Shown: piece after piece, positions 7,855 through 13,836 of the stretch
How the letters are laid out: each line of letters begins with the position of its first letter
How positions within the stretch are numbered: position 1 is the stretch's first letter
Origin: Candidatus Bathyarchaeota archaeon
Lineage (GTDB): Archaea; Thermoproteota; Bathyarchaeia; TCS64
DNA length: 17,559 nt
Direction of reading: 5' to 3'
Assembly (NCBI GenBank): GCA_013619005.1
Contig: JABXKY010000060.1
Coordinates: forward strand, 1 to 17,559
The notes under the pieces: model-generated
Seen by the model: the letters and a program-made list of their open reading frames with translations, nothing else
The model's database searches: none
Told to the model about the DNA's origin: nothing
Program-made: the position numbers and the translations under genes

Positions 7855-8283
7855 ATGTCAGATTACGAAGAAGAACCCCAGATGAAGATCGGGGACTTGA
7901 AGACCTTTTCGAGGAAGGTATACACGGTCGCCAAGGTCATAAGCATCGGCGAGGTCAGGGAGGTCACCTCCAGGAACGATAACAGCACCCACCAGGTGTG
8001 TGAGGCGCTCATAGCCGACGATTCGGGCAGCGTCTACCTTACGCTGTGGGATGACAACATAAGCCAGATCGAGGAGGACATGGTCCTCAAGCTGGACAAC
8101 GCCTACGTCAACGTGTTCAGGGGCAGCATGAGGCTGAACCTGGGCAGGTACGGAAACTTCTCCGTGCTGGAGGAGGCTCCATTCGATGAGGTCGACCTTG
8201 AGAACAACGTCTCGGCCCAGCAGGTCGAGTACGAGAACCGCAGGCCTTATGGTCGAGACCGCGGTCGCAGCAGAAGATACTAA
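7855..8283 (+). CDS. ssb: Single-stranded DNA-binding protein, SsoSSB-type (one OB fold)
   Basis: A 142-residue protein with one OB fold (about 11-107) and a basic tail. KIGDLKTFSRKVYTVAKV (11-28), GEVREVTSR (32-40), CEALIADDSGSVYLTLWDDN (49-68) and NVFRGSMRLNLGRYG (86-100) match the crenarchaeal SSB and eukaryotic SOSS-B/hSSB1 pattern; W65 and F88 sit where DNA-stacking aromatics are expected. The acidic linker (111-128) and the arginine-rich tail (RRPYGRDRGRSRRY, 129-142) are unusual: SsoSSB tails are typically glycine/arginine-rich with an acidic end, whereas this one ends basic. It coats single-stranded DNA in replication and repair and could support the polymerase operon 2.4 kb downstream, though it is not co-transcribed with it. 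Confidence 0.88.
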   Translation: MSDYEEEPQMKIGDLKTFSRKVYTVAKVISIGEVREVTSRNDNSTHQVCEALIADDSGSVYLTLWDDNISQIEEDMVLKLDNAYVNVFRGSMRLNLGRYGNFSVLEEAPFDEVDLENNVSAQQVEYENRRPYGRDRGRSRRY

Positions 8284-10600: not shown

Positions 10601-10679
10601 TTAATTGTTGAGGAGCGGGTTATCTTCGATGACTGCCTGTACTTTCATCAATCCCCATGGTACCCGGCACTGCGTTTGG

Positions 10680-10687
10680 CTTAATAC
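10680..10687 (+). promoter_or_regulatory. Probable TATA box of the RecA-like/PolB operon
   Basis: CTTAATAC is centred about 31 bases before the ATG at 10715, giving at most a few bases of leader. A second AT-rich element (10691-10698) is slightly too close. Confidence 0.4.
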
Positions 10688-10714
10688 ATGAATTATTGTT
10701 GATGCATCCGCTAA

Positions 10715-11755
10715 ATGACTGAGTACGTTACGGGGCAGGAGCTGCTGAACAGGCACACGGCCGAGAGCCAGCTCTCCATGGGGAGCCCTGAGCTGGATCA
10801 ACTGATAGGGGGTATCCAGCGTGGGCTGTTCTATTTCTTCTATGGCGAGAAGACCCTCATGGAGACGCTGTTCCAGCACATGACCACACAGGCCCTTGCA
10901 GCCAACGAGAAGGGAAAGCCAGTAGTGGTGTACATGCTCCTCGGCAACTACAGGAAGGAGCGCACCAACCTGGGGCTAGAGGAGCTGACCGAGTTGGTTG
11001 AGGACTCTGGGTTCCACATGTGGGAGGCACTGAAACGGGTGCAGATATTCACGGCAAGCTCCGCCGACCAGCAGGTTCTCCTCGTGGAGGGATTGATACG
11101 GCTCCTCATGGAGGAGAGCAACGTAAGCTTGGTGATCGTGAGGGGTATTTACAAGCTGGCCAAGGACGACCCGCGGATCAGGAACCGTCACGTGGTCTAC
11201 GAGGAGGTCCAGGCATCCATCAATAGCCTGAGGAATATCTGCGCCGAGAAGCGGATACCCATAGTGGCGTCAGGCCGTATCAGCGAGGCGAAGACCAAGA
11301 GGAACCCCATGCCAGAGAGCAGCATGTTCCTGAGGCACTGCGCCAACATCATAATCTACCTTAGGGCTAGAAAAAAGGGTTCCAAGTACAACAGGGCGTT
11401 CCTCGTCGACCACCCCGTGAAGCCGTTGGGCTCAGTCGAGTATCATTACGTTGTTGATTTCAAGATGGGAAGGGAAACAAAGCCATTCAGGATGAGCTAC
11501 CAGGAGCTGGTGGACAAGCTCAGGAGGGAGTTCCAGGACCCCCTTAGGAGCGAGAACAGGAGAACGGCCTTTGACCTGCTAATACAGGCATGGTCGGACG
11601 AGTTAGGGGCTATGAGCTACGCGGAGTCGTTCAAGATGCTTGACCTGATGCTCATGATCTCGACGCTGGAGAACAGGAGCATGCTGGAGAAGATGACGAG
11701 ACAGCTTGAGACAGTGAACAGGAAGCTCAGCAGGCTTGAGGATGGGCACGTGTGA
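10715..11755 (+). CDS. Degenerate RecA/RadA-fold protein (inactivated ATPase) coupled to PolB
   Basis: A 346-residue protein with a RadA/KaiC-like core. The N-terminal motif GSPELDQLIGGIQRGLFYFF (23-42) matches the 'LD-LLGGG-G' lead-in of RadA. Where the Walker A loop belongs it reads YGEKTLMETL (43-52): the G-K-T/S is lost. The Walker B strand VSLVIVRG (137-144) lacks the acidic residue. Later segments (VYEEVQASINSLRNICAEKRIP, 161-182, then a strand and LRHCANIIIYLRARK, 206-220) follow RadA order through the L2 region. A helical tail of about 80 residues ends in a short coiled coil (MLEKMTRQLETVNRKLSRLE, 323-342) that could mediate contact. ATP hydrolysis is not expected. Its stop codon overlaps the PolB start (GTGA), so the two are translationally coupled and probably form a complex. 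Confidence 0.82.
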   Translation: MTEYVTGQELLNRHTAESQLSMGSPELDQLIGGIQRGLFYFFYGEKTLMETLFQHMTTQALAANEKGKPVVVYMLLGNYRKERTNLGLEELTELVEDSGFHMWEALKRVQIFTASSADQQVLLVEGLIRLLMEESNVSLVIVRGIYKLAKDDPRIRNRHVVYEEVQASINSLRNICAEKRIPIVASGRISEAKTKRNPMPESSMFLRHCANIIIYLRARKKGSKYNRAFLVDHPVKPLGSVEYHYVVDFKMGRETKPFRMSYQELVDKLRREFQDPLRSENRRTAFDLLIQAWSDELGAMSYAESFKMLDLMLMISTLENRSMLEKMTRQLETVNRKLSRLEDGHV

Positions 11756-13836
11756 GGCACAGGGGCTGGCTGCTGGATCCCTATATCAGGGAAAGAAACG
11801 TGGTCTACTGGTTCAAGACCAATAAAGGTGAGGCCATCAAAGTCGAGGAAAGGCATAACCCGGTCATCGTGGCCAAGCCCAAACCCGGGTACACCATTGA
11901 CAACCTGGTTTACCTCTTTGAGGAGCACCCCTTCGTGGTCTCTGCAAGCCCCGTTACGCGTTATACTTCAATCCACAGGGAGAAAAAGGCCCAGTACGTT
12001 GAGGTGAAGGTGGACATGGGCGATGACCTGGACGAGGTGGTCAGGTACGGTGAAAGGCTGCGTGAGGTCGAGGAGCTATTCAATATCGGCCTGATTCCCA
12101 TCCAGTGGCACCTCATATATCAGGGCATCCAGCCCAGCGCCCTATGCGATTTCACTGAGGAAAAAGGTCGGTTGACATCTATCGAAAAGATCGATGACGG
12201 GGAAGCATTAGAACCACCGCCTTGGAAGACCATGGTATTGGGCATATCGGACGGCTACATGGTATCAAAGGTCCAGGTCACGGATGAACACGGTGAAACG
12301 GAGGTACTTGACGGGAGTGAGAGCGTTATACTCCAGCACCTCAACGAGGCGATACTGGAGTGGGACCCCGATATCATAGTAATGGATGATCCGCGTTCGG
12401 CCACCAGGCACCTGATGAGCAGGGCTAGAAGGAAGGACATCGATCTCAGGTTCGGTAGAGGGGGCGAGGGTTTCAGGGGCAGGATACTCCTTGGGTCCGG
12501 TAGCTACAACAGTATCGGGTTGGTGGGGTTAGTGGAGAGGGCGAGGTTCACCTACGCGCCTATCGGGGTCTCGGCGGACTGGGAGCCTGGAAAGACCATC
12601 GACAGCAGGCAGTGCGCCGAGGCGGTTAAGATGGATGTGGTGGTGCCCGGGATGAACGGCGGCTACGGGTTCAAGTCCAGCGCCTGGGACATGGTAAGGA
12701 GCGACAGGGGGGGCATGATTTTCAGCCCCAAGGCTGGTCTCCACGAGAACGTGGCAGCCCTCGACTTTGAGAGCATGTTCCCCAACATCATAATCCACAG
12801 GAACGTGAGCTACGAGACCGTAACCGAGGAGGGGATCGATACGTCAAAACCGGGCTTCATGGGGGGGTTCATGGGCGAGTTCCTCACAAGGCGGCTCAGG
12901 TTCAAACATGACAGGGAAAAGTACCCGAGGGACAGCGATGAGTGGATGTGGGCTCAGCAGAGGCAGGCGGCGTTGAAGCTCATGCTGGTGGTCGTGTACG
13001 GGTACAGCGGCTGCTACTCAAACAGGTTCGCCAACGTCAGGGTCTTCCAGGAGATCAACAGGGAGGCGAGGCGCTGTATGGTGCACGCATTGAGGATCGC
13101 CCAGGGGGACGGCTTCGATGTGATCTACGGACCGTTTGACTCCCTCTTCGTCAAGAAGAGGGACGCGTCAAGGAGGGATTACATCGAGCTGGGGAAACAC
13201 ATCACCGAGGAGACGCGCCTGCCCATGAACCTGGACCACCACTTCAAGTACTTGGTTCTCCTGACAAAGACAACTGACCCCATGGTGGTAACCGCCAACA
13301 GGTACTACGCGAAGCTCATGGATGGCGGTCTTTTCTACCGGGGAATCGAGCTGAGACGCCACGACACGCCGAAATACATCTACAAGATGCAGATCGAGAT
13401 GTTGAACACTATGTTCAGGCATGAAACAGTGGAGCAGGTCAGGACGAGGGGCATGCAGGAGGCACACGACGTGGCGGCGAGGGCGATAACCAAGATCAGG
13501 CTCGGGAAAGTTGACCCCGTGGAGTTAATCATATCCAAGCGCCTCAGGAGGGAGGTCAATGAGTACAAATCAAGGCAACCACACATAGTCGCCGCGATGC
13601 TGGGCAACTCCACAAACATATCAGAGTACATTTTGTTGAACACGGAGAGCCCAAACCCGATGCTCAGGGTCATGCCGGCATCCTTGCTGGACGGCTCGCA
13701 TAAGAGTTACGACAAGAAGAAGTACGCCTCGATGGTGAGGCGGGCTGCCTGGAACCTGCTGCGGTCATTCGTCCCCGACGAGAAGAGCATTGGGACCAGG
13801 CTCTATGAGAGGACTAGGCTGGACGCGTTCGCCTAG
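11752..13836 (+). CDS. Divergent B-family DNA polymerase, PolB2 (Dpo2) type
   Basis: A 694-residue family B polymerase, shorter than replicative PolB enzymes. Palm motif A is ALDFESMFPNII (336-347; catalytic D338 kept). Motif B is RQAALKLMLVVVYGYSG (404-420): K409 and YG stay but the conserved N-S is V413-V414. Motif C is VIYGPFDSLF (457-466) instead of YGDTDS: the first Asp is Pro, while the main metal ligand, D463, remains. Exonuclease motifs are gone: Exo I D-x-E reads G-I-S (164-166) and Exo II N-x-x-x-F-D is missing after DPDIIV (205-210). The thumb region RGIELRRHDTPKY (530-542) is recognisable. The family was first described as inactivated, yet in Sulfolobales Dpo2 is reported to act in damage-induced mutagenesis. 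The start is GTG 11752, overlapping the previous stop. Confidence 0.88.
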   Translation: MRHRGWLLDPYIRERNVVYWFKTNKGEAIKVEERHNPVIVAKPKPGYTIDNLVYLFEEHPFVVSASPVTRYTSIHREKKAQYVEVKVDMGDDLDEVVRYGERLREVEELFNIGLIPIQWHLIYQGIQPSALCDFTEEKGRLTSIEKIDDGEALEPPPWKTMVLGISDGYMVSKVQVTDEHGETEVLDGSESVILQHLNEAILEWDPDIIVMDDPRSATRHLMSRARRKDIDLRFGRGGEGFRGRILLGSGSYNSIGLVGLVERARFTYAPIGVSADWEPGKTIDSRQCAEAVKMDVVVPGMNGGYGFKSSAWDMVRSDRGGMIFSPKAGLHENVAALDFESMFPNIIIHRNVSYETVTEEGIDTSKPGFMGGFMGEFLTRRLRFKHDREKYPRDSDEWMWAQQRQAALKLMLVVVYGYSGCYSNRFANVRVFQEINREARRCMVHALRIAQGDGFDVIYGPFDSLFVKKRDASRRDYIELGKHITEETRLPMNLDHHFKYLVLLTKTTDPMVVTANRYYAKLMDGGLFYRGIELRRHDTPKYIYKMQIEMLNTMFRHETVEQVRTRGMQEAHDVAARAITKIRLGKVDPVELIISKRLRREVNEYKSRQPHIVAAMLGNSTNISEYILLNTESPNPMLRVMPASLLDGSHKSYDKKKYASMVRRAAWNLLRSFVPDEKSIGTRLYERTRLDAFA

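Follow-up and report, generated by a model that had tools for sequence, protein, structure and literature searches.

The PolB2 mutasome, composed of a family B DNA polymerase (PolB2), iRadA and PPB2, was published in 2014 (PMC4104785) and again in 2025 (PMC11791011), and fusions of iRadA with PPB2 have already been reported in the second of these papers. In this work we have analysed a stretch of 17,559 nucleotides from Candidatus Bathyarchaeota archaeon (contig JABXKY010000060.1; the window, below, is this whole stretch), which is contig C150 of a 1.75-Mb genome in 370 contigs, with a completeness of 85% and a contamination of 6.6%. Our results show that the window carries a new Bathyarchaeia member of the published mutasome. 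Two open reading frames (ORFs) of the forward strand, ORF1 (10715-11755, 346 residues) and ORF2 (11752-13836, 694 residues), very probably form a two-gene operon encoding a PolB2 translesion polymerase complex, with iRadA and PPB2 in one polypeptide. The stop of ORF1 and the start of ORF2 overlap by the four bases GTGA (11752..11755, + strand), an arrangement that would couple their translation. The initial annotation of this DNA had read the same overlap and had proposed a mutasome formed by an inactivated RadA paralog and a degenerate PolB2; our results support this idea, although it was already published and the PPB2 part had been overlooked.

As judged from its sequence and predicted structure, the N-terminal part of ORF1 (residues 1-250; 10715..11464, + strand) is an iRadA, with a RadA/RAD51 fold that lacks both the Walker A and B residues and the N-terminal helical domain. 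ORF1 matches the NCBIfam models of RadA (E 8.4e-9) and RadB (E 6.9e-8), both far below the curated cut-offs, and positions 66-212 of the RadA model align to residues 3-151 of ORF1, with the N-terminal helical domain absent. The protein also matches RadB in the PDB (2cvf, E 5.6e-5), and its AlphaFold2 model matches RAD51, RadA and DMC1 chains with a best E of 1.5e-18; the mean predicted local distance difference test score (pLDDT) of this model is 78.8, most of the core being confident and residues 251-258 falling below 50. The Walker A site reads GE--KTLMET, versus G-x4-GK[ST] in six canonical RadA proteins, and the Walker B aspartate is replaced by arginine (LVIVRG). The loss of both Walker motifs from a RadA fold, as claimed at the outset, is thus confirmed, and a check of the ATP site finds neither set of residues. 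The precomputed Pfam family PF26485 is present on some iRadA homologues, and a local Pfam scan of four of them returned no such match.

Residues 251-346 of ORF1, with the stop codon (11465..11755, + strand), are identified by comparison with relatives as the third mutasome subunit, PPB2: an N-terminal arm, MGRETKPFR, followed by three helices, in a domain that is a separate gene in relatives. Pfam and NCBIfam scans of ORF1 named no PPB2 domain. In six genomes belonging to the window's own family (G047, G062, G080, G086, G089 and G116) the segment of ORF1 from about 252-258 to 331-344 matches an ORF of its own located between iRadA and PolB2, the iRadA of G047 being cut by the contig end. Gly252 is kept in all 106 homologues with a letter at that position and Arg253 in 105 of them, while position 251, in 111 aligned homologues, is Met in 54, Leu in 47, Val in 4 and a gap in 6. 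Of the PPB2-like ORFs that stand alone, 74 with same-contig duplicates counted, 56 likewise open the domain with the motif [MLV]G[RK], and section 3.3 of PMC11791011 describes an N-terminal arm MGRT in PPB2. In addition, the PPB2 profiles of the two PolB2 clades presented below, I and II, match each other with E 7.5e-8 and a probability of 94.5. Because of the matches to separate ORFs, the conserved MGR arm and the match between the profiles, we conclude that ORF1 is an iRadA fused to PPB2; its equation with arCOG07300 follows the published description. In the AlphaFold2 model the C-terminal helices span residues 262-274, 280-296 and 302-345, the first two with pLDDT of only about 55-70.

PPB2-like genes also occur elsewhere. 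Five of them (L097 2910-3194, L098 2035-2283, L099 5999-6295, L100 5082-5402 and L102 5779-6072) had no PolB2 nearby in the stretches examined, and a sixth (L101 4406-4717) follows a canonical RadA. In one subclade with separate PPB2 (L085, L086, L087 and L089) CTG seems to be the first codon of the MGR-type arm.

ORF2 is a family B polymerase, as first proposed: Pfam PF00136 matches residues 318-614 (E 2.2e-31), and its AlphaFold2 model (mean pLDDT 87.6) matches archaeal PolB chains, the best being 5mdn (E 1.4e-40). The motif A catalytic aspartate D338 (12763..12765, + strand) and the second aspartate of motif C, D463, are present, as the initial annotation stated, and both are invariant in a 57-row alignment and unchanged also in an 18-row set. 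Motif C (Gly-Pro-Phe-Asp, residues 460-463, in the context YGPFDS; 13129..13140, + strand) has Pro in place of its first Asp. Val413 replaces the Asn of motif B, another change noted earlier, and this loss is a feature of the family, since none of the ten PolB2 rows compared retains the Asn. The residues D318-R319 (12703..12708, + strand), the D(K/R) motif of PolB2 described in PMC11791011, end a loop that is found in 10 of the 10 PolB2 rows shown versus none of the ten comparison PolB. At the C-terminus, RTRLDAFA (residues 687-694; 13810..13833, + strand) resembles a PCNA box, although it departs from QxxLxxFF in having no Gln and an Ala after the aromatic residue; an LDxF-like C-terminus is present in 76 of 97 PolB2 rows versus 1.4% of random windows. 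Some members of the published mutasome have a motif for clamp binding, either in PolB2 or in iRadA.

The phylogeny places ORF2 within PolB2. The comparison rows were Bathyarchaeia PolB untyped as PolB1 or PolB3, with no Sulfolobus PolB2 in the tree. A careful tree built on 67 rows separates the PolB2 rows from six other Bathyarchaeia PolB (support 100/100), and a quick tree of 146 rows separates them from ten (Shimodaira-Hasegawa approximate likelihood ratio test, SH-aLRT, 100). Both trees rule out that ORF2 is one of the other Bathyarchaeia PolB types. PolB2 splits into two clades. Clade I, which includes the window (100/100 in the careful tree), has 64 rows, and the relatives in it carry the labels Bathyarchaeota, Thermoproteota, Brockarchaeota, Methylarchaceae and Nitrososphaerales. 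The other clade, II, with 72 rows in the quick tree, contains other Bathyarchaeia, Thaumarchaeota, Asgard archaea, anaerobic methanotrophic (ANME) archaea and bacteria; its motif C is mostly His-Gly-Ile-Val-Asp, and its PPB2 genes are separate where found. Clade I varies at the first position of motif C: 30 rows have Asp there, 19 Pro, 14 Asn and one His, with at least six changes on the careful tree, some of them possibly reversals because the counts carry no direction. All rows with Pro cluster together (19 rows, SH-aLRT 100, in the quick tree; 9 rows, 100/99, in the careful tree). Between fused and separate PPB2 the careful tree gives three changes (28 of 64 rows), in a labelling that is blank for some fused rows (L143, L144 and L146) and in which L152, counted as separate, may be a fusion broken by a frameshift. 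This work adds to a little-studied translesion system a well-supported PolB2 clade in which motif C is either intact or changed, and the natural series Asp-Thr-Asp, Asn-Thr-Asp, Asn-Ser-Asp and Pro-Phe-Asp allows a direct question on the role of the first Asp.

How could PPB2 be supplied by a fused gene? Enrichment of Shine-Dalgarno sequences in iRadA-PPB2 fusions is reported in PMC11791011, and the test of the junction codon made here is independent of it. PPB2 opens with TTG in 14 of 29 non-identical fused genes, with ATG in 12, and with GTG, CTG and AAA in one each, that is, a start-type codon (ATG, GTG or TTG) stands at the fusion junction in 27. Where the junction residue is Leu it is encoded by TTG in 14 of 15 cases, compared with 1.58 expected from the Leu usage of the same genes (P 8e-15, uncorrected for kinship). 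Across the 51 columns with at least eight Leu in 24 genes, a set that left out the fused L091, L092, L093, L144 and L146 (the 29-gene set includes all), the junction has 93% TTG, the next column 27% and the other 50 columns, pooled, 7.2%. In 18 of the 29 genes, moreover, pairing with the anti-Shine-Dalgarno sequence in the 17 bases upstream of the junction is in the best 1% of positions of the same gene. Because start codons, an excess of TTG and Shine-Dalgarno pairing have been kept at the junction, free PPB2 is probably also made from the fused gene in most relatives, through a second start, and there it would complete the PPB2 trimer.

Several observations speak against this proposal, and the most direct one comes from the window. 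The ATG that opens its PPB2 (11465..11467, + strand), a candidate internal start of a codon type conserved in the clade, has no Shine-Dalgarno sequence in the window (pairing free energy -1.3 kcal/mol, 93rd percentile). The ortholog L064 has an ATG with almost no pairing (-1.3 kcal/mol, 88th percentile), the junction ATG of L091 has weak pairing (-3.1), and the junction codon of L095 is AAA. For the window gene the idea of two products does not pass the test that it sets itself, since the Shine-Dalgarno sequence is missing there, and the making of free PPB2 from it is doubtful. An ATG without a ribosome-binding sequence suggests that this lineage perhaps uses the fused form only; alternatively, it may obtain free PPB2 from its second operon, described below. 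In its general form, the alternative says that ORF1 acts as an obligate iRadA-PPB2 fusion, with three iRadA per PPB2 trimer and no free PPB2 at all. We consider this quite possible without favouring it: the junctions of the window and of G110, which have no Shine-Dalgarno sequence, and the AAA codon of L095 agree with it, but it leaves aside the start-type codons and the strong pairing that the clade keeps at the junction, as well as a junction residue that is Met, Leu or Val in nearly all the aligned homologues counted above. With start codons conserved within the fused gene, the published idea of two products can be put to the test.

By analogy with the described complexes, the loop of PolB2 ending in D318-R319 would dock on iRadA as one RadA protomer docks on its neighbour, the arm of PPB2 (MGRETKPFR) would insert between PolB2 and iRadA beside the DNA, and the C-terminal LDxF motif would bind PCNA. 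The polymerase would then extend primers past lesions without proofreading, like Sulfolobus islandicus Dpo2, which is active with IID at motif C (PMC8764526, PMC11791011). Primer extension past lesions is likely to be the job of this polymerase, and for this organism we infer that the synthesis is mutagenic. Some points weigh against this interpretation. The first Asp is missing from motif C and the Asn from motif B. The absence of proofreading motifs, claimed by the initial annotation, has partial support: in the exonuclease region ORF2 has lost four N/D columns (R215, G248, S251 and G272) that 9-10 of the 10 comparison PolB retain, but the three exonuclease-motif patterns, unmatched in the N-terminal part of ORF2, make a weak search because some of them are also unmatched in most of the ten comparison PolB, and the putative loss is therefore read from the column changes. 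Two clade-I PolB2 genes, in L140 (2.0 kb searched) and L094, have no iRadA upstream. Finally, no known damage-response gene adjoins the window operon.

The changed active site could mean instead that this PolB2 has no catalytic activity and works at stalled forks as a scaffold or regulator. The replacements of the first motif C Asp by Pro and of the motif B Asn by Val would fit, and such a role was the earlier proposal for inactivated PolB2 (PMC4104785). We regard this explanation as improbable, given that D338 and D463 are invariant, that S. islandicus Dpo2 is active with an IID motif C and that the polymerase domain is under strong purifying selection, with a ratio of nonsynonymous to synonymous substitution rates (dN/dS) of 0.06 relative to the ortholog L132. 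This ortholog (Candidatus Bathyarchaeota isolate SI048_bin30; apparently the same contig as G110:C98) has a PolB2 89% identical to that of the window, and dN/dS over the operon is 0.06-0.09, which indicates purifying selection. These values, together with the open frames of 93 and 104 nearly full-length homologues, make a chance origin of the frames unlikely. They also contradict a decay of the operon into pseudogenes, a notion suggested by the disappearance of several canonical active-site residues and one that we take to be most improbable. We conclude from these comparisons that the operon is under purifying selection.

A survey of co-occurrence, suggested with the initial annotation, took in 34 non-identical clade-I loci; in 30 of them iRadA precedes PolB2 on the same strand by no more than 400 nt, a rate biased by the choice of loci from PolB2 and iRadA matches. 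In G065 the iRadA lies 3.4 kb from PolB2, in G036 it is elsewhere on the same contig, and L150 stops at a contig end. Between iRadA-PPB2 and PolB2 of G065 (L135 2678-5919) there are three genes, encoding a GyrI-like regulator, an M55 peptidase and a protein that weakly matches PD-(D/E)XK. Eight loci (L073, L074, L075, L077, L079, L080, L092 and L093, the last with its PolB2 elsewhere) have, directly upstream of iRadA-PPB2, a canonical RadA whose Walker A is intact, and in several of them it is preceded by a gene of an Orc1/Cdc6 cluster and a small gene. The first of these clusters is present in 10 of 37 loci compared, and Pfam identifies its gene as Orc1/Cdc6 in each of three loci examined (L074, L077 and L080); the small gene, of another cluster, is present in 7 of 37, and two of three checked match helix-turn-helix (HTH) models weakly. 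The proximity of orc1/cdc6 to polB2 is reported in PMC11791011, where we found, in the parts consulted, no report of a canonical radA near polB2.

None of these three genes, canonical RadA, the Orc1/Cdc6-cluster gene or the small gene, is beside the window operon. A damage-response cassette around it was considered and rejected, as its neighbours are an FAD oxidoreductase, a metallo-beta-lactamase fold protein, an ABC transporter, an alanine racemase, a DEAD-box helicase and others; an Ssb-like OB-fold protein (7855-8283) lies about 2.4 kb upstream. The putative promoter is the element GGCTTAATACAT (10678..10689, + strand), which we take to be TATA-like by the usual consensus and which is identical in L132. 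The region 10630-10690 holds ACTTTC and this element in blocks identical to L132. ANTTTC is a damage-promoter word from work on Sulfolobus; with 5 fixed letters, the ACTTTC match is too small for such a claim.

The same genome contains a second, diverged iRadA-PPB2/PolB2 operon (G000:C338 1304-4487, L063), whose PolB2 is 36% identical to that of the window, with motif C YGNSDS, a strong internal Shine-Dalgarno sequence with TTG, and the C-terminus TASLESFFNP. Because G110 carries both operons too, their coexistence is unlikely to be an artefact of contamination, although both genomes have some (6.6% in the window genome, 9% in G110). A canonical RadA (C204) and a longer PolB (C125) are also present, and a second short Rad51-family gene (C60) may be RadB.

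Y-family polymerases (PF00817 above cut-off) are found in 101 of 201 Bathyarchaeia genomes: 2 of 32 with clade-I PolB2, 46 of 54 with clade-II-like PolB2 and 53 of 115 others, the class being assigned by the position and E-value of each match, so that distant PolB2 may sit among the 115. The 85%-complete genome of the window gave no Y-family match. Within its family of 27 genomes only G059 has one, and G059 is one of five without the clade-I polymerase, the remaining four having neither. This pattern is a lead only, because it is clustered by family and ancestry is uncontrolled. It would be bold, and in our view unlikely to hold as a whole, to propose jointly that clade-I mutasomes replace Y-family polymerases in Bathyarchaeia, that the internal start fixes PPB2 stoichiometry and that the window lineage borrows PPB2 from its second operon.

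Among titles and abstract openings, supplements and subscription papers apart, we found no paper on PolB2 in this lineage; PMC12926913 concerns bacteria by its title and abstract, and PMC11791011, its supplements apart, nowhere uses the word Bathyarchaeota. How does the window operon compare with known systems? The ImuA/ImuB/DnaE2 system and E. coli Pol V also join a RecA-family partner to a translesion polymerase. Their polymerase subunits are of the Y- or C-family, ImuB being a Y-family relative. ORF2, in contrast, is family B only by Pfam (PF00136), which rules out an ImuB-like polymerase, and the ImuA/ImuB logic of the initial annotation is only an analogy. S. islandicus Dpo2, an extender polymerase compared by description, is a PolB2 without proofreading whose motif C has also lost the first Asp; it reads IID, and its host also has the Y-family Dpo4. 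From the published PolB2 mutasome the window departs in its Pro-Phe-Asp motif C, in having no internal Shine-Dalgarno sequence and in its Bathyarchaeia host, and it shares with it the three parts together in an operon, a dead RadA ATPase site, the first Asp of motif C missing as in most PolB2, the D(K/R) loop and the MGRT-type arm of PPB2.

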